Source of the DNA: Urbifossiella limnaea | GTDB taxonomy: Bacteria > Planctomycetota > Planctomycetia > Gemmatales > Gemmataceae | Assembly: GCF_007747215.1 (NCBI RefSeq) | Contig: NZ_CP036273.1 | Coordinates: forward strand, 4,448,322 to 4,512,321 | Direction of reading: 5' to 3' | Length of the DNA: 64,000 bases | Part shown: positions 8,233 through 62,642 of the stretch, one piece after another | Layout of the letters: each line of letters opens with the position of its first letter | Position numbering within the stretch: position 1 is the stretch's first letter | Position numbers and translations under genes: made by a program | The notes under the pieces: model-generated | Database searches by the model: none | Told to the model about the DNA's origin: nothing | Seen by the model: only the letters and a program-made list of their open reading frames with translations

Positions 8233-8438
8233 GCGCGTCCCGGGCCGGGATCGCTGCGAGTCCCGGGCGGCCCGTCGGGTCGGGGCATCGAGTGACCGGC
8301 CCGTCGCCGAGAGGTCGCACCGGTGGGGGTCGCATCGGCGTTCACCTCGACCGTCGGCAGCCATCCAAGGAACTCGACCCGCTCGCCGGTAATCCGGCCG
8401 GCGGCGTCGGAAGTGTCGATCGCAAGGTAACGCGGCTT

Positions 8439-8649: not shown

Positions 8650-8737
8650 GCGCACGACCGGCGGCCGGCCCCGCCGACCGGGTTCGGCCGGCTACAACCA
8701 CCTTTTCGACCACTCCGACCCCGCCCGCGAGGCCGAC

Positions 8738-9712: not shown

Positions 9713-9851
9713 CTGGGGCCGGGGTCGGGGGGCGTTGTGAACAAAAGTCAACTTGACGGGTCGCCCCCAGTGCCGGGGTGGATCATACGGCGGTGCAAGG
9801 GCCGCGGCAAACCGCCCAGCACTGCGGCAATCGCCTTCCGTACTCCGCGGA

Positions 9852-40040: not shown

Positions 40041-40583
40041 TCAGCGGTAGAAGTCGATCCACTCGACGGTCAGCAACTTCGGGTTGTCGCGGAGGAACGC
40101 GGCCGGAAGCGTGACCTCGAAGTGCCCGCCGTCGAGCGGGACGCCGGCGGCCAGCTTCCCGTCCTTGCCGAGCACCCGGATCGCCAGCCGGCAGGGGTCG
40201 TCCGCGGCCAGCGGCGTCTCGTCCTTGCCCGGCGTCCACTGTCGGACCTCGACCTTGCCGTCCCGGACACCCGCCGCGGCCCCGACCGCGACCGCGCCGG
40301 CCGACACCTTCAGGTTCTCCAGCCCCTTCAGGTAGAGCCGCACGACGACGGCCTTCGGCCACGTGTCGCCCGTTCGCTCGATCACCGCCCGGCTGATCCC
40401 CGACGGGCTCCTGACGTCGAACGTGGTGCGCTCCCGATCGCCGCCGACCGTCACCGTGTCGTCCGCCTTCCGGGTGGTGACGGTGAACCGGGCCGGCGGC
40501 TCGTCGGACGCCCCAGGCAGAGTGCCGAGCCCGTGCGACGCCACAGACAGCGTGAGAAGTAAGCCCGCAGTCGCCGCACGCAT
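40041..40583 (-). CDS. secreted hypothetical protein, 180 aa
   Basis: A signal peptide (MRAATAGLLLTLSVASHGLG) is followed by an all-beta pattern (FTVTTRKADDTVTVGGDRER, KAVVVRLYLKGLENLKVSAG) ending FLRDNPKLLTVEWIDFYR. This resembles small planctomycete secreted beta-sandwich proteins of unknown role. The start at 40583 is set by the signal peptide. Confidence 0.75.
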   Translation of the reverse strand: MRAATAGLLLTLSVASHGLGTLPGASDEPPARFTVTTRKADDTVTVGGDRERTTFDVRSPSGISRAVIERTGDTWPKAVVVRLYLKGLENLKVSAGAVAVGAAAGVRDGKVEVRQWTPGKDETPLAADDPCRLAIRVLGKDGKLAAGVPLDGGHFEVTLPAAFLRDNPKLLTVEWIDFYR

Positions 40584-40802
40584 GGTCGGTCCTCCACACC
40601 CTGCCGGCCGACACCCCGGCAACGTCCGCGACTCGGGCTCGTTCAGCGGGTGCTGGTCCTTCCGCCCGTCGGCCACCACCGCCACCCACTCGGTCACCCG
40701 CCGGCCCAGCAACCGGCAGGCGTCCATTCCCGCGGCTCCTTCGCGGCCACCGCCCCGTAGTGGCAGGTCGTCGCCTTCCCGGCGTGGTCGATGACCCCGA
40801 TG

Positions 40803-41000
40803 TCACGCCGCCTCGTCCGCCGGCTTCTGCACGGGCGGTGCCGGAACCCGCTCCCACCACTGATGCGGGCAGACCCGGCACCGGTACTTGGTCTCGACGA
40901 ACTTGCCGTCCGCGGCCTCGACCGTCCTTCTGGCCCGGAACAGATAGCCCTTGTGCTGGCACTTCGGACAGCAGCGGTCGGGACGAACGAACGGCGTCAT
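40803..41000 (-). CDS. small zinc-ribbon protein, 65 aa
   Basis: The sequence has two knuckles, CCPKCQHKGYLFRARR and YRCRVCPHQWW, spaced as in a TFIIS/transposon-type zinc ribbon. The start at 41000 (MTPFVRPDR) is preferred to an upstream extension. The function is unknown; DNA, RNA or protein binding is possible. Confidence 0.6.
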   Translation of the reverse strand: MTPFVRPDRCCPKCQHKGYLFRARRTVEAADGKFVETKYRCRVCPHQWWERVPAPPVQKPADEAA

Positions 41001-41061
41001 GCGGCGGACTCCGGGAGCTTCATGTCGGCAGGCGGGGGCATCGTCGAGGCGGGCGACCGGG

Positions 41062-41223
41062 TCAGAGTCGCCGGCGGCCACCGAGCACGCGGAGCACGAT
41101 CACCACCAGGACGAGGAGGAGGATGAGGTGGATGAAGGGTCCGCCGAACGGGACGATGAACGCCCCGAGAATCCAGAAGAGGACGAAGAGCAGGACGATT
41201 GTTTCGAGCGGGTAGCGGAACAT
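41062..41223 (-). CDS. Lmo0937-family small membrane protein (DUF5670)
   Basis: This protein of about 53 aa consists of two hydrophobic helices (LETIVLLFVLFWILGAFIV, FIHLILLLVLVVIVLRVL) joined by PFGGP and ends GGRRRL. Its size, topology and Arg-rich end match the Lmo0937/DUF5670 family. The role is unknown, perhaps stress-related membrane adaptation. Confidence 0.75.
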   Translation of the reverse strand: MFRYPLETIVLLFVLFWILGAFIVPFGGPFIHLILLLVLVVIVLRVLGGRRRL

Positions 41224-41363
41224 GGCGGTCTCGGGGCGGGGTCCGGGCGAATCCGAGCAACCCGCCCCACCCGCCGGACGGGTGCGTCGCCTGTTAGCGA
41301 CCGCTCCTGGTCGGCGGGGGTCTCGTCCAACCGGGCGGCGGCGATTGCGTGAGCGAACCGCGA

Positions 41364-41606
41364 TTACGACTCGTCGGGGCCGAGGTCGGACTCGATCTCG
41401 GTGCAGCTGATCACGTTCGCGGTGTCGTTGAAGTACACCAGCACCTCGGTCCCGTCCGCGTCCTTCCCGGAGTGCATCCCGCCCTTCTCCGGCTTGAAGT
41501 CGATTCGTGCGGCCCGTGTGAAGGCCGTGCCGCGTTTCACCGACGGGCTCAGATCCGCCTTCGGGTGCTTGGCCCACAACTCCGCAACCGTCTCCGCGAA
41601 CGTCAT
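41364..41606 (-). CDS. hypothetical protein, 80 aa
   Basis: This small soluble protein has an N-terminal helix (MTFAETVAELWAKHP) followed by beta-type segments (RAARIDFKPEKGGMHSGKD, TEVLVYFNDTANVISC). No family is recognised. Coding is supported by composition and isolation from other frames. Confidence 0.5.
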   Translation of the reverse strand: MTFAETVAELWAKHPKADLSPSVKRGTAFTRAARIDFKPEKGGMHSGKDADGTEVLVYFNDTANVISCTEIESDLGPDES

Positions 41607-41689
41607 CGCCGCCCACCTCCGCTGGACAGGAAACGGAACGAGATAGGGGGAGGAAGAACTGCCGTCAAGCGCGACGGCGACCTCGCGGA

Positions 41690-42691
41690 CTATCCCGCCA
41701 GCCGCCGGGGTTGATCTCTGGCCGGCCGTCCCGGGTTCACCTCTCTCGCCGCCCTGTCGGTCCCCGTGTGCGGAGCCGGGTCGCCCGACGGGTCCGGCCC
41801 GGCCACGAGGCCGGCGTCGATTTCGTCATCGAGCCGCCCGTGGTCGAGACGTCCCGGGTCGCCGGCCCGCCCGGCCCTGCCGGGCCGCGCCGGCGGTATC
41901 GACCGCGAGTGGCTCGTCGCTCCTCCCCGCCGGGCCGACCGGGTCGTCTCCGGCAGGGCCGCCAGGAACGCCTCCACCGCCGCCGCTTTCGGCGTCTGGG
42001 TGGCGGCCCGACCGTCGTTGTGGGCGTCGAGGTCGCGGAGCCGCCGACGGTCTCTCACCACCCCGGCGAAGTCCTCGTCCGTCACGGCGGCCATCGACGC
42101 CACCCAGATCTCGGCAAGCAACCGGATGCGGGCCTCCTTGTAGGCCCGCTGTTGGCCGGACGCGGTCAGTAACCCGTCCGGCATCGGCCGGCCGGTGGTG
42201 GCGGCGATCACCACGTCCAAGAGGACCGGCCCGCCGGCGAGGGCCGCGAGCTTCCACGCGGCGGCCGGCTGCGGGCCGGTGAACCCGCGGAGCGGGCTGT
42301 ACCCGACCGCGTGGGTCAGCAGCCAGTCGGTCGCCGCGCGCATCGGGCGGACGGCGAAGAACACCGCGGCGTACGCCTCCACCAGGGCGGCCGGCAGCGC
42401 GAGCCGCACGGCGACGCGGTCGAGCGGCTCGTCGGTGAGGAGGCGGGCCTCCAGTTCCCCCTTCACCGCCGGATCGCCAGCCCAGATCTCGTGGGCGGCT
42501 CGAACCGTCGCCGCCCTCGACGCGGCACCGCCGCGGTTCTGGATCGCAGCGCGGGCGTGGGACACCCAGGCGTCGTCGATCCGCCGGTCACGCCGGCGGC
42601 CGGTGGCGAGCAGGTACTCGGCCCGCAGCCACCGCCACTCCGGTCGGCGGTAGAAGCTCCCCGGACTCCATCGGAGGGGGTCGGTGACCAT
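41690..42691 (-). CDS. hypothetical helical protein, 333 aa
   Basis: The start at 42691 (MVTDPLRWSPGSFYRRPEWR) was chosen because the upstream part is non-protein-like. The N-terminal 240 residues are helical (ARLLTDEPLDRVAVRLALPA, VEAYAAVFFAVRPMRAATDW), a pattern of gene products found in integrated elements of Gemmata-like genomes. The last 80 residues are Arg/Pro/Gly-rich and probably disordered. The function is unknown. Confidence 0.65.
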   Translation of the reverse strand: MVTDPLRWSPGSFYRRPEWRWLRAEYLLATGRRRDRRIDDAWVSHARAAIQNRGGAASRAATVRAAHEIWAGDPAVKGELEARLLTDEPLDRVAVRLALPAALVEAYAAVFFAVRPMRAATDWLLTHAVGYSPLRGFTGPQPAAAWKLAALAGGPVLLDVVIAATTGRPMPDGLLTASGQQRAYKEARIRLLAEIWVASMAAVTDEDFAGVVRDRRRLRDLDAHNDGRAATQTPKAAAVEAFLAALPETTRSARRGGATSHSRSIPPARPGRAGRAGDPGRLDHGRLDDEIDAGLVAGPDPSGDPAPHTGTDRAAREVNPGRPARDQPRRLAG

Positions 42692-42933
42692 CACGTGCCT
42701 CCTTGCACGCCGGGCCGGTCCGGCGGTCGGCCTGCGCTTCGGCGACGCCCATCCGACCCTGACCCATTGTCCCAGATGAGGCGGGTGTGCCGCCAGAGAG
42801 GCAGGCCGGGCCACGACTTTTGTTACGCTCGTTGTGCGCCGGGACGACCTGTTGCTCTGGCCCGGCTACCTGCCGGTTTGGGACAATGCGCGGGGACGCG
42901 GTGGGATGTAGCACAATTCGGCGGAGGGCGGTC

Positions 42934-43248
42934 ATGGGGTGGGAGCGGCGGCAGCAGGGGCCGAAGTTGGGGTACTTCTACACTTCGGTTCGTGTCGGTG
43001 ACCGCGTCAAGAAGGTCTATTTCGGCCGCGGGCAGGCCGGGCACGAGGCCGCGGCCGAGCTGGAGCTGAGGCGCAAGGGCCGCCTGGAAGCCAAAACGCT
43101 CCTTCAAGACGCCCGTGACGGCGCGGACGAGGCCGATCAACTGGCGAACGAACTGCGGGAATGGGCGGAAGTGCTGCTCGGCACGTGGCTGATCGTGACC
43201 GGGCACCGCAAGCGCCGCGGCCAGTGGAGGAGGACGAGCTGTGGGTAG
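42934..43248 (+). CDS. hypothetical protein, 104 aa
   Basis: MGWERRQQGPKLGYFYTSVR opens a small basic beta-hairpin domain (VGDRVKKVYFGRGQ), followed by a long helix (EAAAELELRRKGRLEAKTLL). Its stop overlaps the next gene's GTG by 8 nt, so the two are a coupled pair. DNA-binding is possible but not shown. Confidence 0.6.
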   Translation: MGWERRQQGPKLGYFYTSVRVGDRVKKVYFGRGQAGHEAAAELELRRKGRLEAKTLLQDARDGADEADQLANELREWAEVLLGTWLIVTGHRKRRGQWRRTSCG

Positions 43249-43801
43249 GAAGCCGAGGGTGGGGTCGCGGGCGTGGGAGGAATCGCTCGTCAACAGTCCG
43301 ATGTACGCCCGGAACACGATTCTTGACCTGGCCAAGCGGGCCGAGGGCGGGAGCAAGGAGGCCGTCGAGAACCTGTCCCTGTGGCTGGAGAAGTACCCGG
43401 GCATGCGGGCTCTGGTCCGCGAGCTGGACGACCTGGCCACCAAGGTCGAGCGGGCCTGGGTGCAGCGGCTGTGCGGGACCGACGAGCTGTCGCGGAAGGC
43501 GGTCGAGGACGACCTGGCGGCGATGAAGGCCGAGCTGCTCGGCCCCGCCCCGTCGGTCGCCGACAAGATCCTGGTGGGCACCGTCCTGGTCGCCAACCTG
43601 GGCTACCAGCGCGCCGCCCTCGCCGCGTCCCTGCCGACGGACAGGCCGGAGGTGCGGGCCGCCCGGGAGAAGCTCTTGTCGGGCGCCCAGAAGCGGCTCC
43701 AGGACGCGCTGCGGGGTTGGGAACTACACGCCGGGAAGAAGGCCCGGGGGCTACGCCCGCGGGGCAAACTCAAGCTGTTCGAGCCCGAGGCGGTGGCGTA
43801 G
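43241..43801 (+). CDS. hypothetical protein, 186 aa
   Basis: The GTG start follows GGAGGAGGACGAGCT and overlaps the previous gene. The protein is helical and rich in Ala, Leu and charged residues (GMRALVRELDDLATKVERAW, SVADKILVGTVLVANLGYQR). It occurs as a pair with the preceding basic protein. The function is unknown. A coding-like minus-strand fragment (LEKYDLDGIVTTSGGITIWR, about 43,800-43,910) follows. Confidence 0.65.
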   Translation: MGRKPRVGSRAWEESLVNSPMYARNTILDLAKRAEGGSKEAVENLSLWLEKYPGMRALVRELDDLATKVERAWVQRLCGTDELSRKAVEDDLAAMKAELLGPAPSVADKILVGTVLVANLGYQRAALAASLPTDRPEVRAAREKLLSGAQKRLQDALRGWELHAGKKARGLRPRGKLKLFEPEAVA

Positions 43802-44015
43802 CACCCGGCCGCCGGCTCGCCTCGCCAGATCGTGATGCCGCCGGACGTGGTGACGATGCCGTCGAGGTCGTACTTCTCCAGCCGGCGACACGCCTCCCGT
43901 TCCACCGCCGGAACGCCCGCGTGCCATGTCCGAACGAAGCCCCTCTGAAGTTGCCGTACGACCCTCCACTTTCACCAGCCGCGAAAAGGGGTGGAGGCGT
44001 GGGTTGCGAGACGGC

Positions 44016-45011
44016 TTATGAGTCGGCCAGGAGCAACGCCAGGTCCCAAACGGTGAGCTCGCCTTCCAAGTCCCCGGTCGCAACGTGCCGCCCGTCCGGG
44101 GAGAACGCGACCGCCCGGAGCTTGCCGTCCAGGGACGCCTCGGCCGCCGGGACTGCGGCCTTCGACCAGCGCCGGAGCGTGACCCCACCGTCGCCCGGGC
44201 CGTGCGCCGACACCACTTCGTCGTTGTCGAGGGTCGTGATGTCAAGTACCTCGTCCGGCCCGCCCTCCCCTTCCCGCACCAGCTTTCCCGTCGCGGCGTC
44301 CCACACCCAAACGCCGCCGGCCTCGTCCCCCGCCAACACCCGCGTCCCGTCCGGCGAGAATCGGACGCACGTCGCGGGAACCTTCCCACCCTTCAGACGC
44401 CGGGACGGCTTCTTCACACCGACCTCGTACACCAACACCTCGCCGGGCTTGCCCGCGACCGCCAGATGCCGCATGTCGCGGTCGAACGCCACGCCCTCGC
44501 ACGGCCCGGCGTCCGGGAACGCTTCTTCGGCCCATTTCCCGGTCGGGCAGTCGTACCAGTCGATCCCGGGATGGCCCGCGAGCGCGACCCCTCTTGGCGA
44601 CGCGGCGACGGATCTGCGGGAGAACCGCACACCCGCTGCCCCCCCGAGCAAGGACGCCGTGTTCGCAACCGCGTCCCAGCGGAAGACTCTGAATTGGTTG
44701 TCGGTAGCCTTCTTCCCGCCCTGCGTCAGCAGGACCAACTCGCCCCATCCCGGCCCGAACGCGACCCCGACGACCGCCCACTTGTCTTTGCGCTTGTCCT
44801 GGGCGCCCACGCTTTTGCCGGACCCGACGTTCCAGAGTTGGGCCGTGCCGTCGTGGGCGCCGGACGCGAGGCAGGTGCCGTCCGGCGAGAAGACGAGGGC
44901 GTGAATCGTGCCGTTCGTGGCGGGCATTCGGTGAACCAGACCCCTGACCGGAATCGAGGCGGCCGGCGGTTTTGGGCGCTTGGCCGACGAGCCCGAGGAT
45001 GTCGTCCCCAT
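44016..45011 (-). CDS. WD40-repeat protein
   Basis: This protein of about 331 aa starts at 45011. It contains about six WD-like blades, for example IHALVFSPDGTCLASGAHDG, TCVRFSPDGTRVLAGDEAGG and LRAVAFSPDGRHVATGDLEG, with WNVGSG, WVWDAATGK and LTVWDLALLL ends. These make a beta-propeller for protein interactions. There is no signal peptide, catalytic domain or kinase fused to it. The partner is unknown. Confidence 0.88.
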   Translation of the reverse strand: MGTTSSGSSAKRPKPPAASIPVRGLVHRMPATNGTIHALVFSPDGTCLASGAHDGTAQLWNVGSGKSVGAQDKRKDKWAVVGVAFGPGWGELVLLTQGGKKATDNQFRVFRWDAVANTASLLGGAAGVRFSRRSVAASPRGVALAGHPGIDWYDCPTGKWAEEAFPDAGPCEGVAFDRDMRHLAVAGKPGEVLVYEVGVKKPSRRLKGGKVPATCVRFSPDGTRVLAGDEAGGVWVWDAATGKLVREGEGGPDEVLDITTLDNDEVVSAHGPGDGGVTLRRWSKAAVPAAEASLDGKLRAVAFSPDGRHVATGDLEGELTVWDLALLLADS

Positions 45012-45261
45012 GGTTGTACCTGTTGGTGCGCAATGGTGCCGACCCCGAGTATCCACGTTGCCGCGAGCGAAACAAGTAGCGGGAAAGAATTTCCCGGAGA
45101 CGACGTGTGAGACGGATGCGGTTCGTCGGTGGGACACCCACCTGTCGAGTCGGGATAGGATTCAAGAAAGGGGTATTGGGTCGCTTCGGCGGGTGCGGAG
45201 ACCAGCACCCGCCGTTGCAGGCCGTCGGCCCGCAGGTGCCGTGGAACGAGGGGAGTCGCCC

Positions 45262-45969
45262 GTGACAACCGCGAGAACGGCGAAGGTGATGGCGGCGGTG
45301 AAGGCCATCAAGGACTTCCACGCCCTCGGCCGGTCGGTGCCGAAGAAGCAGGCCCAGAAGGAGGCGTACGCCCAGGGCACGGTCGACGCCGAGGCCCAGA
45401 AGCACGGCGTCAACCCGGACACCGTCCGCAAGGCCCGGCAGTTCGCCGACCCGGTCGGCGGGTACACCCCCGCCGAGGTGAACGACCTCTGCCGGCTCAT
45501 CACCGCCGAGCAGCCCCACCAGGACGACGAGCGCTCGGTGTTCGGGCGGACGCACCTGATCCGGCTGCTGAGCGTGAAGAAGCAGTACCGCGCGGGCCTC
45601 CAGGAGGCGGCCGTGCGGGGCGGGTGGTCGACCGGCGAGCTGGAGGCCCAGATCGCTGCGAGGTACGGGAGCCGGCGGGACGGCGGGCGGAGGCGGCGGC
45701 TCCCGGCCGACGCGCTCGGGCTCCTGACCCAGGTCGAGCGGCTGTGCGAGGGGTGGCGGCGGTGGGTCGCACTCGTGTCCGCGAACCCGGAGCAGCAGGT
45801 GGGTAAGACCAAGGGGCCGTCGATGAACGACCTCCCGCCCCGTGTCCGGCGGCTGGTGGGCGAAGCCGGCGCCGCCCTGGCGAAGCTCCACGAGGCCGCC
45901 ACCGAGGAACTCAAGGCCCGCCGGCCGGGGCGGGCCGTCCGGCACCAGTTCCGCAAGGCCCTGGAGTAG
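45262..45969 (+). CDS. hypothetical protein, 235 aa
   Basis: The GTG start at 45262 follows GGGGAG; an internal ATG (45289) is an alternative. The N-terminal part carries a helix-turn-helix-like segment (DAEAQKHGVNPDTVRKARQF). A region with FGRTHLIRLLSVKKQYRAGL and GWSTGELEAQIAARYGSRRD follows, then a helical tail. It is probably a planctomycete-restricted, element-associated DNA-binding protein. The long minus-strand frames across it are antisense shadows. Confidence 0.65.
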   Translation: MTTARTAKVMAAVKAIKDFHALGRSVPKKQAQKEAYAQGTVDAEAQKHGVNPDTVRKARQFADPVGGYTPAEVNDLCRLITAEQPHQDDERSVFGRTHLIRLLSVKKQYRAGLQEAAVRGGWSTGELEAQIAARYGSRRDGGRRRRLPADALGLLTQVERLCEGWRRWVALVSANPEQQVGKTKGPSMNDLPPRVRRLVGEAGAALAKLHEAATEELKARRPGRAVRHQFRKALE

Positions 45970-45999
45970 GTCGGGACGGGCGGGGGACGGACGGGGCAC

Positions 46000-46301
46000 C
46001 CCCACCCCGCCGGCGTAAGTCGGCCCGCCGGTCCCACCCCTCCGGGAAGGGGATGATGTCCTCCGGTGAAATGCGCCGGCCTCTGCTTCGGCTTCTTAGC
46101 GGGGGTCGGTGTCGTCGCCGGGTCGAGCGGCGCGACGGGCGGGCCGGTCGGCCCGACGGCGCTCAGGGCGGCCAGGGCCTTCTCCAGGTGGGCGCGGCAG
46201 ATGAACGCCCGCGGCCCCTGGGCTGGCCACAACACCCGCAACGCCCCGCGAATGCACTTCCGGGCGGCGGCGTGACGGAGTTCGGTGTTCGGGGTCGGCA
46301 C
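46000..46301 (-). other. possible gene start or remnant downstream of the HTH gene
   Basis: From an ATG at 46301 the minus strand reads MPTPNTELRHAAARKCIRGA, then LWPAQGPRAFICRAHLEKAL, which looks coding and follows the previous stop by 31 bp. Further on, the composition degrades and the frame runs antisense through the gene at 45262-45969. The true end or integrity cannot be set. Confidence 0.3.
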
Positions 46302-46332
46302 GGCAAGCCCCGTCCAAGGAGGATGGTGAACG

Positions 46333-47145
46333 TCAACAAGGGGTGACGAGCCGGACGCCCCACGCCGCCCCGTCCCCCCGGCAGGTCAGCCGCTCGGCCA
46401 ACCCGGTTGACACGAGGCTGGTGATCGCCGCCCGCACCTGACGGACGGTGAGCCTGGTGGCATCCGCCAGCTCGACGTTGGTGGCCACAACCCACCGGCG
46501 ACCGCCCGCCTGCCGTAGGAGTCGTTGCTGGGTCGTGGTCGGGGTCGGCCCCAGGGCGGTCGCCAGGAAGTCGTGGAACAGCCTGTCGCGGGTGGACAAC
46601 CCGACCGGCGGGGCGGCCGAGGGATGATCGCGGGGTGGTAGTGCCGCCGCCCAGCGGACCCACTCGGCCCAACTGGCCAACCAGATCGCCTCGTATCGGG
46701 TGTCCGAGGACTTCTTCGGCCAGGAGGTGTGCCAGTGTGGGTAAAGCGGGAGCGACCCGTCGTCGGCGAACAGGACGAGCCCGCCCCGGATGTCCGCCCC
46801 CCGGAAGCACAGGGCCGGGAGCCGGTGGCCGCCGAGTTCCTCGCCGTCCCCGGCGAGCAAGTCGTTGAGTAGTACGCCCGAGGCCCGTAGCCAGACGAGC
46901 GAGGCAAGTATGTCCGAACTCGCGCGCACCACGAACCGGAAACCGGCCGGGAGCGGGGTCGCAGGGTCGTACAGGTCGCCGAACCGCCAGAGCGACCGCC
47001 CCAGGTCTGCGGCCGTAGCCGAGATCTGCCGCCCCAGGTCGGCCGGGCTCCCGAGCGCGACCACCATGTCCTTCACCCGACGGTGCTCGAACCTGGCGTG
47101 CCGGAGGTGCGCCATCTCTTCCTGAACCAGTGTCAGGCTTTGCAT
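46333..47145 (-). CDS. HTH-containing hypothetical protein, 270 aa
   Basis: The C-terminal region (NVELADATRLTVRQVRAAIT, SLVSTGLAERLTCRGDG) is a winged-helix DNA-binding domain. The N-terminal and middle parts (HLRHARFEHRRVKDMVVALG, FRFVVRASSDILASLVWLR) match no family I know. The start at 47145 lies just below a CAAAA-GTGG-TTTTTG hairpin. It may regulate the mobile region to its right. Confidence 0.65.
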   Translation of the reverse strand: MQSLTLVQEEMAHLRHARFEHRRVKDMVVALGSPADLGRQISATAADLGRSLWRFGDLYDPATPLPAGFRFVVRASSDILASLVWLRASGVLLNDLLAGDGEELGGHRLPALCFRGADIRGGLVLFADDGSLPLYPHWHTSWPKKSSDTRYEAIWLASWAEWVRWAAALPPRDHPSAAPPVGLSTRDRLFHDFLATALGPTPTTTQQRLLRQAGGRRWVVATNVELADATRLTVRQVRAAITSLVSTGLAERLTCRGDGAAWGVRLVTPC

Positions 47146-47155
47146 CGAGAAACCT

Positions 47156-47170
47156 CAAAAGTGGTTTTTG
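47156..47170. repeat. CAAAAGTGGTTTTTG hairpin motif
   Basis: This copy of the dispersed motif lies 11 bp upstream of the start codon of the HTH gene (minus strand). In that orientation its end supplies the GAGG that may act as the ribosome-binding site. Confidence 0.75.
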
Positions 47171-47362
47171 GTTCGCGTCGGACAGAGATCTTCGCCGTCC
47201 GACTTCGTCCCCGTCGGTGCACGGTCGTTGGCGTCGTGATCGCCCCACGCGGCCGGCCGGCGGCGCACAACATAGTCGTGGCGCGATGGGCCGCCCGTCG
47301 GATGCTCGGGGTCGCAGGCGTAGTAACAGCATCCACCTTCACGACTGATAGAAATTGCTTCT

Positions 47363-47388
47363 TGCGTTGCGGGCTCGACCGCAACGCA
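47363..47388. repeat. Inverted repeat, 10-bp arms
   Basis: TGCGTTGCGG-GCTCGA-CCGCAACGCA is a perfect inverted repeat with a 6-bp spacer. It could be a protein-binding site or hairpin. Confidence 0.8.
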
Positions 47389-47441
47389 GGCAAACACCTC
47401 ATTGACCGACTCCTCACTACCCCTCATTATTCCTCATGGTG

Positions 47442-47476
47442 GTTGCCACACAGCCGACCCTCGGCTGTGTGGCAAC
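47442..47476. repeat. Inverted repeat, 16-bp arms
   Basis: GTTGCCACACAGCCGA pairs perfectly with its reverse complement across a 3-nt CCC loop. It forms a very stable hairpin on either strand, 6 bp from the next palindrome, with which it shares the sequence CGACCCTCGGCTGT. Confidence 0.9.
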
Positions 47477-47482
47477 CGACCC

Positions 47483-47522
47483 TCGGCTGTCGGGCCACCG
47501 ACGTCGGTGGCCCGACAGCCGA
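47483..47522. repeat. Perfect 40-bp palindrome
   Basis: TCGGCTGTCGGGCCACCGAC is followed immediately by its exact reverse complement, with no spacer. Perfect palindromes of this length are rare and usually unstable, so the site is probably under selection or very recent. It lies 26 bp past the 3' end of the downstream gene on the minus strand. Confidence 0.9.
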
Positions 47523-47547
47523 CCCCATGACGCGAATCCGCGGGGGG

Positions 47548-48528
47548 CTACCCCTCGGTCTCGCCATCCCACTTCGACAGCCACGCCTCGTAGGCCGCCT
47601 CCACGACCGGCCAGTTGATCCGCAGTCGCATGGCGACCGTGTTGCGCCTTCCTCTCCTGGTGTGCCGCGTCGAACACAGGAACTTCTTCTTCACCAGCCG
47701 CTCGACCGCGTACCGGACCGTGGTCGTCTTGTTGACGCGGAGCCACGCCCGGAGCTGGTCCCGGGTCACGACGTACCACTGCGCGCCGTCCGGGTCGACG
47801 TGGAGGAACCCCCGGTGGGCGTTCAGCCGCTTGCGGGACTTGTGCAACCCGAGCATGAAATCCACCGTCCCCAGGACGGCCCGCTCCAGGAAGTCGTCTG
47901 TGATGGCGACCCACTCGGGCAGTTTGCAGAGGAGCGGCGTCTTCGAGTAGCCGTGCTGGAGGTCGCTCCGCTTATGGGACTTGGCGGTGTAGGCCGCGTC
48001 GTCCACCTCGTCGTCGTCGTCGTCATCATCGTCATCATCGTCGTCATCTTCGTCCTCCGGCTCCTCATCGTCTTCCTCCTCCAGCCCGTTGGTACTGGAG
48101 ATGCCCGCGCCGCCGGCCGTCCGCGTTCGATCGTCCCGGAGCACCTCCGGCAGGTCGGACACCGCCGACGGGGCCGCCGCTTGCCCGCTGGCCGACTTCG
48201 CCTTGCGACGGAGCTTCCGTGATGCCTTGTTCGTTCCATCCGACGTGTCGGGAACCTCGTCTTCGTCCGCGTCGGAAGCGACGACTTTGACTTTTGTTCG
48301 CCGCTGTTTCTTCCTGGGAGGCAGTCGCCCCGCGTGCGTTTTGGCCGCGTCCTTGGCGGCGAAGTGGGCTTCCGTGGCTTCCCGGTTGCGTTCGACCCGT
48401 TTGTCGAGCTTGGCCCGCTCGGCAGCGGACATGCCGCTGAGAGCCGACAGCGGCGGCAGTTTCAAAAGTGGTTTTTGAATACTGGCCGCGGACGCATGGA
48501 CACGGGCCTTGCCCTTTGGTAGGCTCAT
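47548..48528 (-). CDS. winged-helix protein with poly-Asp tract
   Basis: This protein of about 326 aa starts at MSLPKGKARVHA (48528; an upstream ATG at 48603 is possible). A basic N-terminal half (PPRKKQRRTKVKVVASDADE, KASRKLRRKAKS) leads to an acidic linker with a run of about 13 Asp. The C-terminal 130 residues look like a winged-helix domain (LPEWVAITDDFLERAVLGTV, WYVVTRDQLRAWLRVNKTTT, RYAVERLVKKKFLC). It may be a replication initiator or regulator of the element. A dispersed GTGG hairpin motif is embedded in its coding sequence (48463-48477). Confidence 0.65.
   Translation of the reverse strand: MSLPKGKARVHASAASIQKPLLKLPPLSALSGMSAAERAKLDKRVERNREATEAHFAAKDAAKTHAGRLPPRKKQRRTKVKVVASDADEDEVPDTSDGTNKASRKLRRKAKSASGQAAAPSAVSDLPEVLRDDRTRTAGGAGISSTNGLEEEDDEEPEDEDDDDDDDDDDDDDEVDDAAYTAKSHKRSDLQHGYSKTPLLCKLPEWVAITDDFLERAVLGTVDFMLGLHKSRKRLNAHRGFLHVDPDGAQWYVVTRDQLRAWLRVNKTTTVRYAVERLVKKKFLCSTRHTRRGRRNTVAMRLRINWPVVEAAYEAWLSKWDGETEG
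48463..48477. repeat. CAAAAGTGGTTTTTG hairpin motif inside a gene
   Basis: This copy of the dispersed motif lies inside the winged-helix gene, where it encodes QKPLLK on the minus strand. Its coding location suggests the motif can insert into or be acquired by genes. Confidence 0.7.
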
Positions 48529-48660
48529 TGCGTTCACCCCCGAACCGCCAGTCGAGTCGCTGTCCGCAAAACAGCTCGGCTGGCGGTTCCCGTTTGTGGT
48601 CAATACCGCCCACGACTGTGGCGGATCTGGCTCATTTGGTCAATGCCGCGAAGCTGCGAC

Positions 48661-48939
48661 CTAGGCGGACTCGAACGGTGCCCCATACCAGCCGGTCGCT
48701 GCCCACCGGCCGACCTGGTTCGGCATCACCATCACCCTCATCGGCCGCAATTCGTTCCGCCGGGTACGCAGCAGCCGCACGAACTCGGTGGTGAGCGGCA
48801 CGCCCTCGGCCTTCAGCAGGCCGACGACGTCCTCCTTGTGGGCGTCGACCAGGGCGATGCGGTGGTTGCACCCGGCGAGCACCAGCCCCGGCCGGGCGGG
48901 GCAGGCCCACCTGTAGCGGGCGGCGTTGAACAACTGCAT
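48661..48939 (-). CDS. hypothetical protein, 92 aa
   Basis: The start at 48939 (MQLFNAARYRWACPARPGLV) begins the protein-like part of the frame. It contains AGCNHRIALVDAHKEDVVGL and FVRLLRTRRNELRPMRVMVM. No family is recognised. It lies between the RepA-like ATPase and the winged-helix gene on the same strand. Confidence 0.5.
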   Translation of the reverse strand: MQLFNAARYRWACPARPGLVLAGCNHRIALVDAHKEDVVGLLKAEGVPLTTEFVRLLRTRRNELRPMRVMVMPNQVGRWAATGWYGAPFESA

Positions 48940-49092
48940 GGGCAGCGATCCTGGGCTCACGTCCCGCCGTCGCGGTGTACCCACGCAGCCCCACATTTGC
49001 GGTGATGGCAAACCCCAGCTCACGCTCGCAGTTCGATCCTGCCGCACGGGCGTAATTCGCCGACACGGCCGTCCCATGCCTCCCCCCGCCGC

Positions 49093-50259
49093 CTACTGCG
49101 GGGGGAGCAGCCCCCCGTCATCGGACGGATCGTCCGCGCCGTCCGTGTCAGCCGGGGGAAGCCCGCGCTTCCACTCGTCGCCCGGCAGCGGCGGGCCGTC
49201 GCCGTCGTACAGGAGCCGGTCCATCAACTCCTCCAGGTCGCGGTCCTTGAACGGCCGGTGGACGCGGTCGTCGTCGCCCAGCTCCCAGTACCACCGCGAC
49301 CCCCGCCCGCTCCCGTCCTTCCGCGACCGCACCCGGAGCAGGGCCTTCGCCCGCTCGACGGTCCGCCGCGCCACCCCGCCCCGCGCCGCGAGCTTGTAGA
49401 CGTCGGCCGCCCACACCGGGCCGTCGGCCAGGAGTGAGTAAAGGACGTACGCCCCCTCCCTTAGGAGAGAGTGCGCGGCCCGCCCGCCGGTTAGATCGCC
49501 GGCGGTGCTGGGGCTCTCGCCCAGCCACTCGACGGTCACCACGCCGTCCCGCTTGACGGTCCGGTACACCAGGCCGGGGGCGGCGGACAGGTTGGTTTTC
49601 ACCTGGGTCAGCACGTGCTGGAACGGGTCGTCGGCGTTCGGGTCGGGCGCTGCCAGCAGCGCCGAGCGGGCGGCGGCGACCACCCCGATGCTGCCGAGCC
49701 CCCGGTACAGGGGGTTTGACCCGCCGCCCTTGCTCAGGTGTCGCAGGAGGAGGACGCCGAGGTCCAGCCGCTCGGCCAACCCGACCAGCGACCCGACGGC
49801 CGCCCGGACCGCCCGCTCCGAGTTCGCCGGGCCTGACAAGAACGCGGTGAACGGGTCGATCACGACCAGCCCGGCCCCGACCTCTCGGGCGGCGTCCTCA
49901 ACCACGCCGATGTCGTCGGGGAAGACCAGGGGCCGGTCCGCGAACTGCCGCCGGTCGTACACGTACACCTTGCGCAGGTCCGCCCCGGCCGCCTGGAGCC
50001 GCGGCCTGACCGTGTTCCCGAGGCCGTCCTCGGCCCCGATGAGTACCGCCCCGGCCGGGGGCGATGACCCGGTACAGTTGGGCATCGGCCGCCCGCCGGT
50101 GACCCGGGCGATCAGGTCGTAGGCGACGGTGCTCTTCGCCTGGCCGGGGTCGCCGTCGAGGGTGGTGACGGCCTTCCGCGGGATGCGGTTCGGCCACACC
50201 CAGTCGAGCCGTTCCTCAGGAATGTCGTTCAGCGGAACCAGACGCCGATCACTGCTCAT
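49093..50259 (-). CDS. RepA-like AAA ATPase (AAA_25)
   Basis: This protein of about 388 aa starts at 50259 (MSSDRRLVPLND). The RecA-type fold has Walker A GDPGQAKST, Walker B GLVVIDPFTAFLSG and the following LLLRHLSKGGGSNPLYRGLG loop. This matches the hexameric helicase/ATPase RepA-like group of plasmids, phages and integrative elements. A C-terminal winged-helix-like segment (LAARGGVARRTVERAKALL) and an acidic tail (DTDGADDPSDDGG) follow. It probably drives replication of the element, with the neighbouring genes as cofactors. Confidence 0.85.
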   Translation of the reverse strand: MSSDRRLVPLNDIPEERLDWVWPNRIPRKAVTTLDGDPGQAKSTVAYDLIARVTGGRPMPNCTGSSPPAGAVLIGAEDGLGNTVRPRLQAAGADLRKVYVYDRRQFADRPLVFPDDIGVVEDAAREVGAGLVVIDPFTAFLSGPANSERAVRAAVGSLVGLAERLDLGVLLLRHLSKGGGSNPLYRGLGSIGVVAAARSALLAAPDPNADDPFQHVLTQVKTNLSAAPGLVYRTVKRDGVVTVEWLGESPSTAGDLTGGRAAHSLLREGAYVLYSLLADGPVWAADVYKLAARGGVARRTVERAKALLRVRSRKDGSGRGSRWYWELGDDDRVHRPFKDRDLEELMDRLLYDGDGPPLPGDEWKRGLPPADTDGADDPSDDGGLLPPQ

Positions 50260-50284
50260 GGGAACACCTCCGTCTCCGACCAGG

Positions 50285-50338
50285 CCGAAGGTCGCCAACG
50301 TCGCCAACGTCCGGGCGGGCGACGTTGGCGACCTTCGG
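50285..50338. repeat. Inverted repeat, 21-bp arms, 12-nt loop
   Basis: A 21-bp arm (50285-50305, beginning CCGAAGGTCGCCAACG) is perfectly complementary to 50318-50338. The repeat sits 26 bp upstream of the RepA-like start codon. The mRNA leader would fold into a strong hairpin, consistent with attenuation or with a replication or protein-binding site. Confidence 0.85.
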
Positions 50339-50472
50339 CACTGCATTCCGGCTCCCACACGTCGCGGCCGTCCATCCGTCCGATGTGGGCTTCACTGTCG
50401 TGGCAGGTACGCGGACACACTCGGGCAGAGGGCCAACCTGGGGCCACCAACCCGAGCCCCGACTTGCCAACG

Positions 50473-51306
50473 TCACGGGCGGATCATCAACAACTGCACG
50501 GCGAGTACGTGCGCCATCCCGAACGCGGGCATTTGATGCCACGGGTCGGTCTCCCGCTCGGCCGCGCGGCGGTCGAGTTCCTGCATGGTTTTCAGCCCCG
50601 TCCGGCGTAGGCGCGGCTTGTTCGGGTCTCTGGGCTTCTTTGGGGACGGGTTGTCACGCGGGGCGAAGTTGGAGTGGAGGGGGTCTCGGAACCGCACCCG
50701 GGTCCGGTCGTCGCTGAAGACCAGCCGCCGCTTCTCGTCGGCGGCGACCAACCCGTACACGGGCTCGGCTCGCCCGAGGCAGCTGCCGTCCAGCACGCAC
50801 CACTTTCGGTGCAGCCCGCCGGGAGCCTCGACCACCGCCAGCGAGGTTTCCAGGAGCAGCAGGTCGCCGGGTAGCAGCCGCCACGCGTCCACAGCCGTCG
50901 CCGGGTGCCCGGCGGGCAGCCGCCACATGTAGCAGGACGGCCGGTCGAAGGCCGCAGCGACGGCGAACCGCTTCCTGGTCATCAGTGCCGCGTGGTCCGC
51001 CGGTGGGCCGGGGAGCGGCACTTCGCTAACCGGCAGGGTGCCGTGAGTGTCGGGCAGGAACGGCTCGCCCTCACCGGTCGCTGCCCAGTGCGGGTTCACC
51101 CGCTCGACCGCCCCGAGCCGGGCGATCAGGTTCCGGGTCGGCGGCTGCACCTCGCGGACGACGATGTTCACGAGTGCCTGCGTGACGCCCAGCGCGCGGG
51201 CCAGCCTGGTTTGGTTCCCATCGAAGAGCCGGTCGAGGACGAGAACGAGTCGCCCGCGGGCGACCTTCTGCCACTCGACCTGTTCCGGCGTCGGTTTTTT
51301 CCCCAT
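50473..51306 (-). CDS. phage-type repressor, HTH plus LexA/S24-like domain
   Basis: This protein of about 277 aa starts at 51306. Residues about 15-65 form an XRE-type HTH (DGNQTRLARALGVTQALVNI). Around 150-210 is a segment like the S24/LexA C-terminal fold (MWRLPAGHPATAVDAWRLLP, GDLLLLETSLAVVE), though the catalytic Ser/Lys cannot be placed. The C-terminal tail is basic. It is divergent from the excisionase gene, with two palindromes between them, as in a lysogeny switch. Alternative starts lie slightly upstream. Confidence 0.7.
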   Translation of the reverse strand: MGKKPTPEQVEWQKVARGRLVLVLDRLFDGNQTRLARALGVTQALVNIVVREVQPPTRNLIARLGAVERVNPHWAATGEGEPFLPDTHGTLPVSEVPLPGPPADHAALMTRKRFAVAAAFDRPSCYMWRLPAGHPATAVDAWRLLPGDLLLLETSLAVVEAPGGLHRKWCVLDGSCLGRAEPVYGLVAADEKRRLVFSDDRTRVRFRDPLHSNFAPRDNPSPKKPRDPNKPRLRRTGLKTMQELDRRAAERETDPWHQMPAFGMAHVLAVQLLMIRP

Positions 51307-51327
51307 CGGATGTTTTCCATTGAGAGG

Positions 51328-51358
51328 ATGGACACCGTCCATTATTGTCGATAATAAT
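51328..51358. promoter_or_regulatory. Operator/promoter palindromes between repressor and excisionase
   Basis: Two symmetrical sites lie back to back: ATGGAC-ACC-GTCCAT (51328-51342, perfect) and ATTATTGTCGATAATAAT (51341-51358, one mismatched pair). They lie in the 108-bp gap between divergent genes. The AT-rich stretch is out of place in this GC-rich DNA and may contain the promoters. Binding by the 50473 repressor is inferred. Confidence 0.6.
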
Positions 51359-51414
51359 AGATGTGCTGCGGCGGGTTGCAAGGGCGCAGCAACCCGGTTC
51401 TTCGGGGGTGACGG

Positions 51415-51645
51415 ATGGCGAAGGTGACGATCAAGCAGGCGGCAGAGCGGACGGGCCTTTCGACCAGTCTGCTCTACCAGATCTGTGCGGAGCGGCGGCT
51501 GCCGCACTTCCGGCTGGGCCGCGAGGGGAAGCGTGGCAAGATCCTGATCGAGGAGGTTGACCTGGAGGCATTCCTGGCGGCGGCCAGGGTCGAGGCGGGG
51601 GCGTGCGACGACCCGTCCGCCCCGAACAACCGCTCAGTCGCATGA
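51415..51645 (+). CDS. excisionase-like HTH protein
   Basis: This 76-aa protein has the DNA-binding helix_turn_helix/excisionase fold: MAKVTIKQAAERTGLSTSLL, RRLPHFRLGREG, ILIEEVDLEAFLAA. Such proteins bend att-site DNA and direct recombinases towards excision. It lies next to a tyrosine recombinase on the same strand, a typical xis-int order. Confidence 0.85.
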   Translation: MAKVTIKQAAERTGLSTSLLYQICAERRLPHFRLGREGKRGKILIEEVDLEAFLAAARVEAGACDDPSAPNNRSVA

Positions 51646-51800: not shown

Positions 51801-53276
51801 ATGCACCACGACACACCCCACCCGGAAGTCCGGGTTATAGGCGAACGAGACGATCGCAGAAGAATGGTCCCGGCCGAGTTAATGGGCGGCCACGTCCACG
51901 AGACGGCCGGTGGGAAGCGAATCCACATCTGGCGGCGGGGGACCAAGTTCATCGCCCGCGGCCGGTTCCAGGGGCGGCACTTCGGGGAGACCCTCGGTGA
52001 TGAGTCGTCCGCCACGACGAAGTTGCGGCGACTGCTCACCGCTATCGAGGACGGCGCGTACAGGCCGCCCAGTGAGGCGCACCGGAGGCAGCTCGCCGAC
52101 GGCACCGTGCCGCGACTGACGTTCCGGCAGCTGGCCGAGGTGTTTCTCGCGGCAAAGCGGAAGCAAGTTGGAATCCAGACGGCTACGGACTACCGTGCCC
52201 GGCTCGTCCCCTTGCTAGTGTTCGCAGAACTCCCAGCGAACCGCAAGCGGTGGCCGCTAGCCGCGGACGTGGACGCGGGGTTCGTGACGGATGCGCGGGC
52301 GCACCTCTACGCCTGTCGCACGAGCCGAAACGGCCGGGCCGCCGGGCAGCCCCGGCCGCTGTCCCCGCGACAGATCGTGAACGTGATGGAGACCCTGCGA
52401 GCGATGCTCGCGTGGGCCGCCGACCCCCGGAACAACAAGCTACCACCGGGGTGGTTGAACCCGGTCACCCGCGGCTCGGTAGGCACCCCGCCGGCCAAAG
52501 ACCCATTCCGGCGCGACCCGCTGCCGTTGGAAGTCCGGGCCAGGATCGTGGGGCTGATGGACGCGTGGCAGCTCTGCACGCTCGTTCCCTCACTGATCCT
52601 GCCGATGCGGCCCGACGAGGCGTGCGGGCTGCTCACCGACGACGTGGACTTCGAGTACGCCGAGTTGTTGTTCGGGATCAACCTGCCGGACGTGAACTTC
52701 ACCAAGAAGAAGGTCGCGTTCCGGCTCCCCTTCCCGAGCGAGTTGCGGGCGATTCTAGAATCCGCGGTCGGGGACCGCACGAGCGGGCCGCTGCTGCGGA
52801 CACGCCGGGCGTACACCAGAGCCACGCCGCTGGGGGTCGACACCCTGGCGGATTTGAAGGCCCAGTTCGACCAGCGGGTGCTCTCCGAGAAGCCGGGCCG
52901 GGTTCAGACCGACCACGACCGGAAGATCCTGTTCCGCCGACTCCTACGGGAACTCGGCGGCGTGAGCGCGGATGCCATGAATCGGGAGTTCAAGGCGCTG
53001 CTCGCGGCGGCCGGTGTTGCCCCTGGAGCATCGCTCTACACCCTCCGGTCGTCGGTGACGACGACGATGAGCACGGGGGCGAAGCTCCCCCACCTGGAAC
53101 TCACGTACCTGACCAGCCACAGCACCCGGGACATCCTCACCCGGTACACGAGCCTGGACGTACACGGCGAGATGCGGAGGTATTTCGACCACGTCCGCCC
53201 GCTGCTCGACGCGGTCACCCGGCGGAGCGACGAGTTGGGGATCGGACGTAAGGAAGCGGGGTCTTACGAATCGTGA
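51801..53276 (+). CDS. tyrosine recombinase (integrase) 1
   Basis: This 491-aa protein has an arm-binding/SAM-like N-terminal part (LTFRQLAEVFLAAKRKQVGI). The C-terminal catalytic domain shows Arg in LPMRPDEACGL, TLRSSVTTTM (Arg), LTSHSTRDI (His) and RYTSLD (Tyr nucleophile). All key residues seem present. An internal start near 51864 is possible. It follows the excisionase and lies at the right side of the RepA-like gene set, so it is the likely integrase of that element. Confidence 0.88.
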   Translation: MHHDTPHPEVRVIGERDDRRRMVPAELMGGHVHETAGGKRIHIWRRGTKFIARGRFQGRHFGETLGDESSATTKLRRLLTAIEDGAYRPPSEAHRRQLADGTVPRLTFRQLAEVFLAAKRKQVGIQTATDYRARLVPLLVFAELPANRKRWPLAADVDAGFVTDARAHLYACRTSRNGRAAGQPRPLSPRQIVNVMETLRAMLAWAADPRNNKLPPGWLNPVTRGSVGTPPAKDPFRRDPLPLEVRARIVGLMDAWQLCTLVPSLILPMRPDEACGLLTDDVDFEYAELLFGINLPDVNFTKKKVAFRLPFPSELRAILESAVGDRTSGPLLRTRRAYTRATPLGVDTLADLKAQFDQRVLSEKPGRVQTDHDRKILFRRLLRELGGVSADAMNREFKALLAAAGVAPGASLYTLRSSVTTTMSTGAKLPHLELTYLTSHSTRDILTRYTSLDVHGEMRRYFDHVRPLLDAVTRRSDELGIGRKEAGSYES

Positions 53277-54053: not shown

Positions 54054-54087
54054 GGCCCCGGTGACACAAGTGGTTGTCACCGGGGCC
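54054..54087 (+). terminator. Strong hairpin with T-rich tail
   Basis: GGCCCCGGTGACA pairs with TGTCACCGGGGCC across an 8-nt loop, followed by TTTGCCTTT. It fits an intrinsic terminator, here directly upstream of the second integrase. Confidence 0.65.
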
Positions 54088-54120
54088 TTTGCCTTTCCGG
54101 GCCGACCTCGGAACCCCCGA

Positions 54121-54150
54121 TTTGTGGCAGTGTTTGTGGCACTTTGTGGC
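54121..54150 (+). repeat. Three TTTGTGGC direct repeats
   Basis: Identical octamers lie at 54121-54128, 54133-54140 and 54143-54150, 23 bp before the integrase 2 start. Closely spaced direct repeats like these are typical arm-type recombinase sites or autoregulatory sites. Confidence 0.7.
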
Positions 54151-54172
54151 GGGAGGGTTCTCCGAGGATGAC

Positions 54173-55534
54173 ATGGCCAAGGCCCGCTCGTTCCGCGTCG
54201 GCAAGGTGACCGGCTACCTCCGCGGCCGCGTCTGGTACCTCTGCTACTTCGAGCACGGCAAGCGCCGCCGCCCCCGCGCCGGGGCCGACCGGGACGCCGC
54301 CCGGCAGCTCGCCGCCCAGGTCAACGCCCAGCTCGAGACCGGGGCGCCCTCCGCACTCGGGTTCGAGCCGATCGGCATCCCCGCCCTGCGGCGCGACTGG
54401 CTCGACCACCATGAGCAGGTCCGCCGGTCCTCGGTCCAGTCGATCAACCGGTACCGGACGGCCACCGAGCACCTCCTCCGCTTCCTGAGCGACCACCCCT
54501 TGAGGCACGCGGGAATGTTCTCGGCCTCCCACGCCGCGGACTTCGTCCGCCACCTGCGGGCCGCCCGGGTGTCCCCGAACGGCCACCCGAACACCCCCAC
54601 GCGGCCGCTGCTGGACAAGGGCGTGCGGTACGTCCTGGAGTGCTGCCGGGCGCTGTTCAACCACGCCGCCCGGCGGCGGCACCTGCCGCCGTACGCCGGG
54701 AACCCGTTCGCGGCGGTCGAGATCGACCGCATCCCCGTCGAGTCCGCGCGGCCGATCACGCTCCTCACCGCGGACCAGGAACGCGAGTTCCTCGGCGCGT
54801 GCGACGACTGGCAGTTCCCGGTGTTCCTGACCCTAATCCTGACCGGGCTGCGGCCGGGCGAGTTGTGCCACCTCCTGCTGCCCGACGACCTCGACCTGGC
54901 GGCCGGCCTCGTCCGGGTGCGGAACAAGCCGCGACTCGGCTGGCAGGTGAAGACGCGGAACCAGCGCGACATGCCGCTCGTGCCCGCGCTGGCGGACGTG
55001 CTGCGGGTTCATCTGGCGGGCCGCACCTCCGGGCCCGTGTTCCTGCGGCGGACGTGGACGGCCGACGGCCCGCGGTTCGATGCGTCCTCGCCCGCGGCCC
55101 TGGAGGCGGAACTGTCGCGGCGGCTCGCCAGCCGGGACGCGACCCGGGGCGAGTCGGACCGGGACGTCCGGCGGCGCCTGGCCCGGCGGCTCTGGCGGGA
55201 CGCCGGGGCGGTGGACGAGGGCCGGGTCCGGGTCGAGTTCATCCGGGCGGCGGGGGCCGCCGGGCTGGCCGGGCAGACGGCGCCGAAGGTGCTCCGCCAC
55301 CAGTTCGCGACCGCCCTCCAGGAGGGGCGGGTGGACCCGCTGGTCCGGAACATCCTCATGGGGCACGCGGCGGCGGGCGTGCGGTCGGCGGGGCACGGCC
55401 TCGGGATGACCGCGGTGTACACGCACACCCGGCCCGAGACCGTCCGCGAGCAACTGCTCGCCGCGCTCGCCGACCGAGCGGCCGCCGCGGCCGCGCGGGA
55501 GTGGGTCTCCCGACACAACCAGTTACTCGTCTAA
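54173..55534 (+). CDS. tyrosine recombinase (integrase) 2
   Basis: This protein of about 453 aa starts at ATG 54173 (MAKARSFRVGKVTGYLRGRV). Earlier in-frame starts run through the terminator hairpin. The catalytic domain shows Arg in LTGLRPGELCHLL, a Lys-bearing beta-hairpin, LRHQFATALQ (Arg), MGHAAAG (His) and VYTHT (Tyr). It is a full-length phage-type integrase. The gene to its right is a fragment of another recombinase on the opposite strand. Confidence 0.9.
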   Translation: MAKARSFRVGKVTGYLRGRVWYLCYFEHGKRRRPRAGADRDAARQLAAQVNAQLETGAPSALGFEPIGIPALRRDWLDHHEQVRRSSVQSINRYRTATEHLLRFLSDHPLRHAGMFSASHAADFVRHLRAARVSPNGHPNTPTRPLLDKGVRYVLECCRALFNHAARRRHLPPYAGNPFAAVEIDRIPVESARPITLLTADQEREFLGACDDWQFPVFLTLILTGLRPGELCHLLLPDDLDLAAGLVRVRNKPRLGWQVKTRNQRDMPLVPALADVLRVHLAGRTSGPVFLRRTWTADGPRFDASSPAALEAELSRRLASRDATRGESDRDVRRRLARRLWRDAGAVDEGRVRVEFIRAAGAAGLAGQTAPKVLRHQFATALQEGRVDPLVRNILMGHAAAGVRSAGHGLGMTAVYTHTRPETVREQLLAALADRAAAAAAREWVSRHNQLLV

Positions 55535-62515: not shown

Positions 62516-62642
62516 GGCCGTCCTGCCTGACCTCGCCTTGACTTGCGAGCGAATGACGGCAGGGTAACCGGTGGGCCTCACGCCGCACTCACACCTGCGG
62601 CCTCGGCGTGTGAGACTTCGGGGGTAACGGAACCACGTCCGA

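Follow-up and report, generated by a model that had tools for sequence, protein, structure and literature searches.

The window analysed here, meaning the whole stretch of 64,000 nucleotides from Urbifossiella limnaea, contains a dense group of palindromes between two genes on the minus strand, raising the question of what such a structure does. The original prediction had likened it to a replication origin with iterons or to a recombination site. From the comparisons set out below, it appears probable that the region serves an integrative mobile element as its replication origin (oriV) and that the winged-helix (wH) protein encoded beside it is the initiator.

The predicted palindromes were all found in the sequence. 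They comprise a perfect 40-bp palindrome at 47483-47522, a hairpin at 47441-47477 with a 3-nt loop and arms that measure 17 bp rather than the 16 bp originally given, a repeat with 10-bp arms at 47363-47388, and four CCTCAY repeats (47397-47402, 47412-47417, 47422-47427 and 47432-47437). What had been overlooked is that tandem dyad units with a period of 21-22 bp underlie the palindromes, which are four repeats of a 19-bp dyad (TCGGYTG-N5-CARCCGA) and not independent hairpins. Read on the minus strand, the coding strand of the wH gene, the units are TCGGCTGTCGGGCCACCGA, TCGGTGGCCCGACAGCCGA, TCGGTTGCCACACAGCCGA and TCGGCTGTGTGGCAACCAC. Their starts lie 21-22 bp apart, and together they fill 47439..47522 (47504-47522, 47483-47501, 47461-47479 and 47439-47457), beginning 25 nt 3' of the wH stop codon; Tandem Repeats Finder (TRF) gave the array a period of 22. 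The long palindromes, including the perfect 40-bp one, exist because adjacent dyads are inverse copies of each other, exactly so for units 1 and 2 and at 17 of 19 positions for units 3 and 4. The 40-bp palindrome need not function as a cruciform. Iteron replicons are recognised by direct repeats in tandem, some 17-22 bp (or 11 bp) long, that adjoin an initiator gene; repeats of this kind are seen here behind the proposed initiator gene, the four units being the proposed iterons.

The palindrome cluster is real and non-random. In 40 simulated 64-kb sequences (first-order Markov, with the composition of the window), arms reached 13 bp at most and no cluster arose. Long hairpins are nevertheless common in this genome: a control of 20 random 20-kb stretches (400 kb) held 76 hairpins with arms of at least 10 bp, many of them REP-like, and in 31 of these the arms reached at least 16 bp. 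Many of the long hairpins in these stretches (L069-L088) belong to one REP-like family of palindromes, with a core such as CGCCGCTTGCGGCGTAGCG. The abundance of hairpins is what an explanation by ordinary intergenic palindromes, terminators or neutral repeats would draw on, and palindromes behind many unrelated genes had been named in advance as the outcome that would point to ordinary terminators. Yet in no stretch of the 20 did 200 bp contain three hairpins (arms of at least 10 bp) or two (arms of at least 15 bp), so that the palindromes cluster nowhere else in the sampled stretches, and a tandem array was found behind 0 of 259 open reading frames (ORFs) of at least 100 aa in the same 400 kb (TRF score of at least 45, period 10-24, -20 to +60 nt of the stop). 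The 136-bp palindrome region matched only itself in the 7.8-Mb genome, and the motif TCGGYKGN5CMRCCGA occurs at 14 places, three inside the array and 11 scattered singly. A scan of the window and of the related locus L101 for intrinsic terminators (a GC-rich stem followed by a T run) returned no site at the window palindromes, behind which there is no T run. As the placement of the array is also conserved across two versions of its motif, described next, we consider ordinary palindromes a very improbable explanation.

A profile search with the wH domain over 397 genomes of one class retrieved seven genes from five genomes, namely the gene in the window, a second copy in its own genome (L067), two in genome G021 (L101 and L096), one in G045 (L097), one in G018 and a distant one in G313. 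The G018 gene does not enter the array counts, its contig stopping 2 nt past the wH stop codon. At all five family loci with downstream sequence, an array with a period of 21-22 bp starts 30-53 nt past the stop as placed by TRF (scores 77, 111, 117, 112 and 112), the position matching that of the dyads in the window. Two versions of the array motif, unrelated in sequence, occupy this position. Type I (TCGGYTG-N5-CARCCGA) is found in the window and at L101, whose wH proteins are 63% identical, and type II (TGGMGT-N3-ACGCCA, with units separated by G runs) at L067, L097 and L096. At L097 and L096 the final two units are identical copies with one and the same mismatch in their own dyad; direct-repeat identity is thus kept where pairing is lost.

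No homologue of the wH protein was found in phages and none in viral contigs, and a search of genome contigs returned relatives only in two already known metagenome-assembled genomes, JALHNS01 and JAFKJJ01. The one match among sequenced plasmids came from a Rickettsiales plasmid (33%, E 4e-4). It was rejected as a supporting case, since it is overlapped by the annotated gene that comes next and has no array behind it, and it is counted against the origin reading, as is the absence from phages.

The setting of the array fits a mobile element. To its right lie a gene for a phage-type transcriptional repressor (50473..51507, minus strand; PHROG 3.4e-5) and, on the plus strand, the tyrosine integrase of the element (51801..53276; PHROG integrase 1.5e-14, with Pfam Phage_integrase at 1.8e-4, below the cut-off). 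A second tyrosine integrase adjoins the first (54074-55534; Pfam 4.5e-13), and the ORFs at 55869-56330 and 61022-62581 look integrase-like by eye; multiple integrases suggest an integration hot spot. The palindromes and nearby integrases are what might be expected of a site-specific recombination site, whether att, oriT or a resolution site. Integrases accompany four of six family loci, the four that the scan covered, but they are tyrosine recombinases in the window, L097 and L096 and a large serine recombinase at L101, and the array follows the wH gene with either type. Moreover, a row of four units in tandem does not resemble a crossover core, and the att site of an integrated element would have a second copy, whereas the 136-bp region is single-copy. 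A recombination site, the other half of the original suggestion, can hardly be credited on this evidence.

More distant homologues provided a further comparison. With the G313 wH protein as query against 396 genomes of the class, relatives were found in five genomes, G313 included (G313, G321, G241, G343 and G386). Counted from the stop codon, TGTCCAAGCRA repeats start at +7 in G313 and 13-mers of the TTCTATAGAAACC type at +164; in G241, GCACGCATAYCC/CGCTCACACATT repeats start at +2 and 13-mers at +91; and in G321, CAACCACAAGC repeats of 11 bp, also readable as 22 bp, start at +15, with ATTCGGTTCTGC repeats following at +93. G343 is weaker, with short 11-bp repeats that span the stop and score only 39, followed by 15-mers (TAGAAGCCTCTTCCT) from +76, and G386 is weak, with a two-copy 12-mer only (score 48). 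Clear repeats of 11, 12 or 22 bp thus follow the stop in three loci and weaker ones in a fourth, and in all four they give way to AT-rich tandem repeats of 12-15 bp. In a flank control over 76 ORFs from these genomes, under the rule used for the 259 ORFs above, six ORF-array pairs passed, three involving wH genes and three others, two of the latter sharing one array. Neighbouring genes include a tyrosine integrase beside G343 (PF00589, 1.3e-8), a DUF1580 gene beside G321 (2.8e-11) and, beside G241, an HTH_17 gene whose match stays below the cut-off (4e-4). Alignment of the two protein groups with hhalign gave a probability of 86% (E 4.9e-6), and the apparent link between them is one of remote similarity (E 4.1e-5, in 1 of 397 genomes). 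Comparison gave good support to the iteron origin of the original prediction, through arrays at five of five family loci, repeats with AT-rich repeats after them behind four of the five distant homologues (weaker in one) and the replication profiles of the type II proteins discussed below, and none to its recombination site.

The non-coding interval that houses the array, between the two wH genes, spans about 400 bp in the window (47146..47547, minus strand) and 353-472 bp across the five family loci. Beyond the dyads lies a strand-asymmetric spacer of about 50 nt (47389..47438), proposed as the unwinding region, with a GC content of about 50% in a genome of about 70%; it carries the four TGAGG/CCTCAY repeats at a spacing of 10-15 bp. 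The lowest GC in any 60 nt past the stop is 0.30-0.38 in the distant homologues (0.32-0.38 in the four with AT-rich repeats) and only 0.42-0.50 in the five family loci (within 300 nt), against a locus GC of 0.66-0.71. Repeats followed by a lower-GC stretch or AT-rich repeats would correspond to the anatomy of iterons plus an unwinding region. The spacer in the window is, however, not strongly AT-rich, which counts against the origin reading. DnaA boxes of the E. coli type (TTWTNCACA, at most one mismatch), typical of origins but not universal, were absent within 450 nt at four of ten loci, the window included, and the other six had only scattered one-mismatch sites resembling a DnaA box, none of them consistent; this too counts against the reading. 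Within the interval, a 90-aa ORF (47155-47427) was rejected as a gene, as its GC by codon position is poor (0.64/0.56/0.67) and its frame is broken in L011, and Rfam at E values up to 1 returned sub-threshold chance matches only.

The main rival of the origin reading is a function in RNA, in which the array would be transcribed as the 3' tail of the wH mRNA and form stable hairpins between the two wH genes, acting as an mRNA stabiliser, attenuator or terminator. Type I arrays do fold much better than shuffled sequences on both strands (z of -11.1 and -13.6 for the window, -7.7 and -7.5 for L101), and the 5-nt dyad centres, which differ between loci, are exactly complementary between units 1 and 2 and units 3 and 4 in the window and between units 1 and 4 in L101. 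These complementary centres are a real signal, either for pairing or for inverted duplication; template switching can also generate perfect palindromes. The separate hairpin beyond the spacer (47363..47388, minus strand; 10-bp arms, 6-nt loop), which occurs once in its own genome, has a 30-bp counterpart behind the array in L101 that is followed by six T, is terminator-like there and qualified in the terminator scan. Against a role in RNA, fold topology varies by locus, both strands fold about equally, and L096 folds weakly (z -2.57, with 2 of 200 shuffles as good) despite strong direct repeats (TRF 112). The distant homologues, too, show short direct repeats and then AT-rich repeats, with no hairpins. 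We therefore regard an RNA-level element as unlikely, if still worth taking seriously.

The wH protein might instead be a regulator or a centromere-binding protein, with the array serving autoregulation, plasmid-style partition or incompatibility and having no origin activity. Dyads spaced by two helical turns fit a dimeric DNA-binding protein, and winged helices are mostly regulators. However, the array sits past the gene and is separated from the following start codon by about 290 bp that include a hairpin, a place where a promoter-proximal operator would not be expected; no ParA-like partner was recognised; and the AT-rich repeats adjoining the arrays of the distant homologues suit an origin better. 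An operator or partition site seems to us distinctly unlikely.

Two other sequence features accompany the wH gene. A leader hairpin lies directly upstream of its start codon (48542..48589, minus strand), with the core GCTGTTTTGCGGACAGC at 48559-48575. Across 95 genomes of the family, the leader core GCTGTTTT(T)GCGGACAGC occurs at exactly six places, each preceding a wH gene. The stem is conserved and its covariation weak, with two pairs changed on both sides; as 45 of 500 shuffles equalled this, we do not claim the hairpin as a proven RNA structure. The second feature is a 14-15-bp motif with inverted ends (AAAAGTGGTTTTTG; other strand CAAAAACCACTTTTG), of which the genome holds six exact copies (8047-8061, 39523-39537, 47156-47170 and 48463-48477 in the window; G000:C1:3535645 and 4375827) and the reversed control none. 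One copy immediately precedes the ribosome-binding site of the gene that follows the array and another stands near the wH coding start, and both placements are kept, slightly changed, in L011, L067, L092 and L095. It is possibly an operator of the element's repressor.

Returning to the proposed origin, the identity of its initiator was approached through the predicted fold and structural matches of the wH protein (47548..48528, minus strand), together with the replication profiles of the type II proteins. Queries covered 47548-48525, with the wH domain at 47548-47976. An AlphaFold2 model of the domain from six sequences reached a pTM of 0.71 and bore out the winged-helix neighbour of the original prediction. 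The best solved match in Foldseek was 4pql (E 1.1e-3), which we take to be a staphylococcal RepA initiator, and 4pt7 was in the first four. VIA-align gave Z scores of 9.6 for 4pql, 9.1 for 5kbj, 9.1 for 4pt7 and 9.0 for 4pta. The transcription factor TFE-alpha scores as well (9.2-9.4) and the winged-helix fold is common; the fold alone is thus not decisive. One account describes 4PTA, 4PT7 and 5kbj as the RepA initiators of pSK41/pTZ2162 (PMC7145576). The type II wH proteins matched PHROG profiles for a DnaD-like helicase loader (1.6e-7 and 2e-7) and a replication initiation protein (3e-5), whereas the window's own wH protein matched no PHROG replication profile. None of the wH proteins examined matched a Pfam initiator family, RepA_N (PF06970) included, and RepA_C, Rep_3 and the PLE RepA (4RO3) did not appear among the matches listed. 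The missing Pfam initiator match and the missing PHROG replication match of the window's own protein weigh against the origin reading.

The gene on the other side of the array (46333..47145, minus strand), 3' of it and with a homologue at the equivalent place in L011/L101, encodes a second protein with a C-terminal winged helix. It gave a wH profile match (E 5.4e-4) and weak DnaD-like and O-like PHROG matches (E 0.02-0.08), and its model (pLDDT 43.5) is usable at the C-terminus only. No conserved helicase or primase partner was found, a further point against the origin reading. The RepA-like ATPase invoked earlier as an argument for an origin is indeed an AAA_25 protein (49093..50358, minus strand; PF13481, 7.1e-29), but it does not belong to the conserved module: tblastn found no match in L067 or L068, and it is therefore not the conserved partner of the array. 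AAA_25 relatives occur in 31 of 95 genomes of the family, and the ATPase was dropped as an anchor after tblastn found no wH gene in 18 AAA_25 neighbourhoods (L049-L066). The start of this gene in the window holds an inverted repeat (50284-50339) whose 22-bp arms flank a loop of 12 nt. Directly 3' of another AAA_25 gene, in L058 (G010), dense TTGGCGCCCTG dyads stand in both orientations at 5874-6190, perhaps an independent origin of a similar general kind. The two element copies of the window's own genome share further genes (window 40041-49077 and L067 at about 4038-11368). Among these is one protein, presumably amidoligase-like, whose C-terminal end shows 68% identity across 88 aa; by eye, both copies also have in common the products at 40041-41606, 43241-43801 and 44980-45969.

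If the region is an origin, a wH dimer would bind each of the 19-bp dyads, whose presence and spacing are observed. Several bound units on one face of the helix would then impose a bend on the DNA and melt the neighbouring spacer, which is lower in GC and strand-asymmetric. A helicase and primase would be loaded there, perhaps via the second wH protein downstream, as its weak DnaD-like and O-like matches might suggest, while the hairpin beyond the spacer may terminate the initiator transcript or bound the origin. Replication would follow excision by the element's integrase. Taken more broadly, we see about an even chance that these proteins form an unnamed, phylum-wide planctomycete family of wH initiators outside the Pfam Rep families. 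Each would carry its own origin directly past the stop codon, with fast-diverging iterons as a per-element address, a fixed 11/22-bp spacing and a melting region, and would support the transient replication of integrative elements or satellites.

In the open-access full text, no description of a module of wH gene plus array appeared among the matches listed. Planctomycetota model strains are, according to a 2025 paper on genetic tools for this phylum, without a replicative plasmid, and plasmid replication elements are only beginning to emerge (PMC11958385). Should our reading be true, the initiator-plus-origin cassettes, of about 1.3-1.5 kb and in several versions, are direct candidates for such a plasmid, and since the versions differ in their iterons they are possibly mutually compatible. 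It also suggests that small integrated elements of this phylum replicate autonomously, like SGI1 or phage satellites elsewhere.

Three known systems invite comparison. The rep-oriV of Salmonella genomic island 1 (SGI1) has four 17-bp iterons downstream of the initiator gene and replicates after excision (PMC7433901). The locus studied here would likewise belong to an integrative element, with a proposed initiator gene followed downstream by an iteron-type array. Unlike SGI1, whose Rep has a RepA_C domain and whose origin has a putative DnaA box (PMC7433901), it gave no Pfam RepA_C match and no DnaA box was seen in the window. The PLE satellite combines a RepA_N initiator with an origin whose iterons are described as semi-palindromic direct repeats (PMC7145576). 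Similarities with PLE and the staphylococcal RepA_N proteins include the predicted winged-helix fold (nearest structures 4pql, 4pt7, 4pta and 5kbj), partly palindromic direct repeats and, at L101, a location in an integrated element that encodes a large serine recombinase, which is also the case for PLE. In contrast to RepA_N initiators, the proteins described here have no Pfam RepA_N match and carry the winged helix at the C-terminus, behind an acidic stretch. Passages on RepA_N plasmids place the pSK41 iterons inside rep and report that RepA_N iterons usually centre on A-tracts (PMC5703833), whereas the window dyads are GC-rich and lie outside the gene. The lambda origin has four 19-bp imperfect inverted-repeat iterons, each bound by a dimer, adjoining an unwinding region (PMC5043065, PMC7466680, PMC3349717), and both the unit size of 19 bp and the number four are matched here. 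Lambda's iterons, however, lie within the O gene and adjoin an AT-rich stretch of 40 bp, while those of the window lie behind the gene with a spacer of about 50% GC, and the wH proteins have no Pfam O-family match, the one O-like PHROG match (0.0092) coming from a single type II homologue. Fitting neither RepA_N nor RepA_C in sequence match, nor lambda O in location, the wH gene and its array therefore stand as a candidate for a distinct form of iteron replicon.
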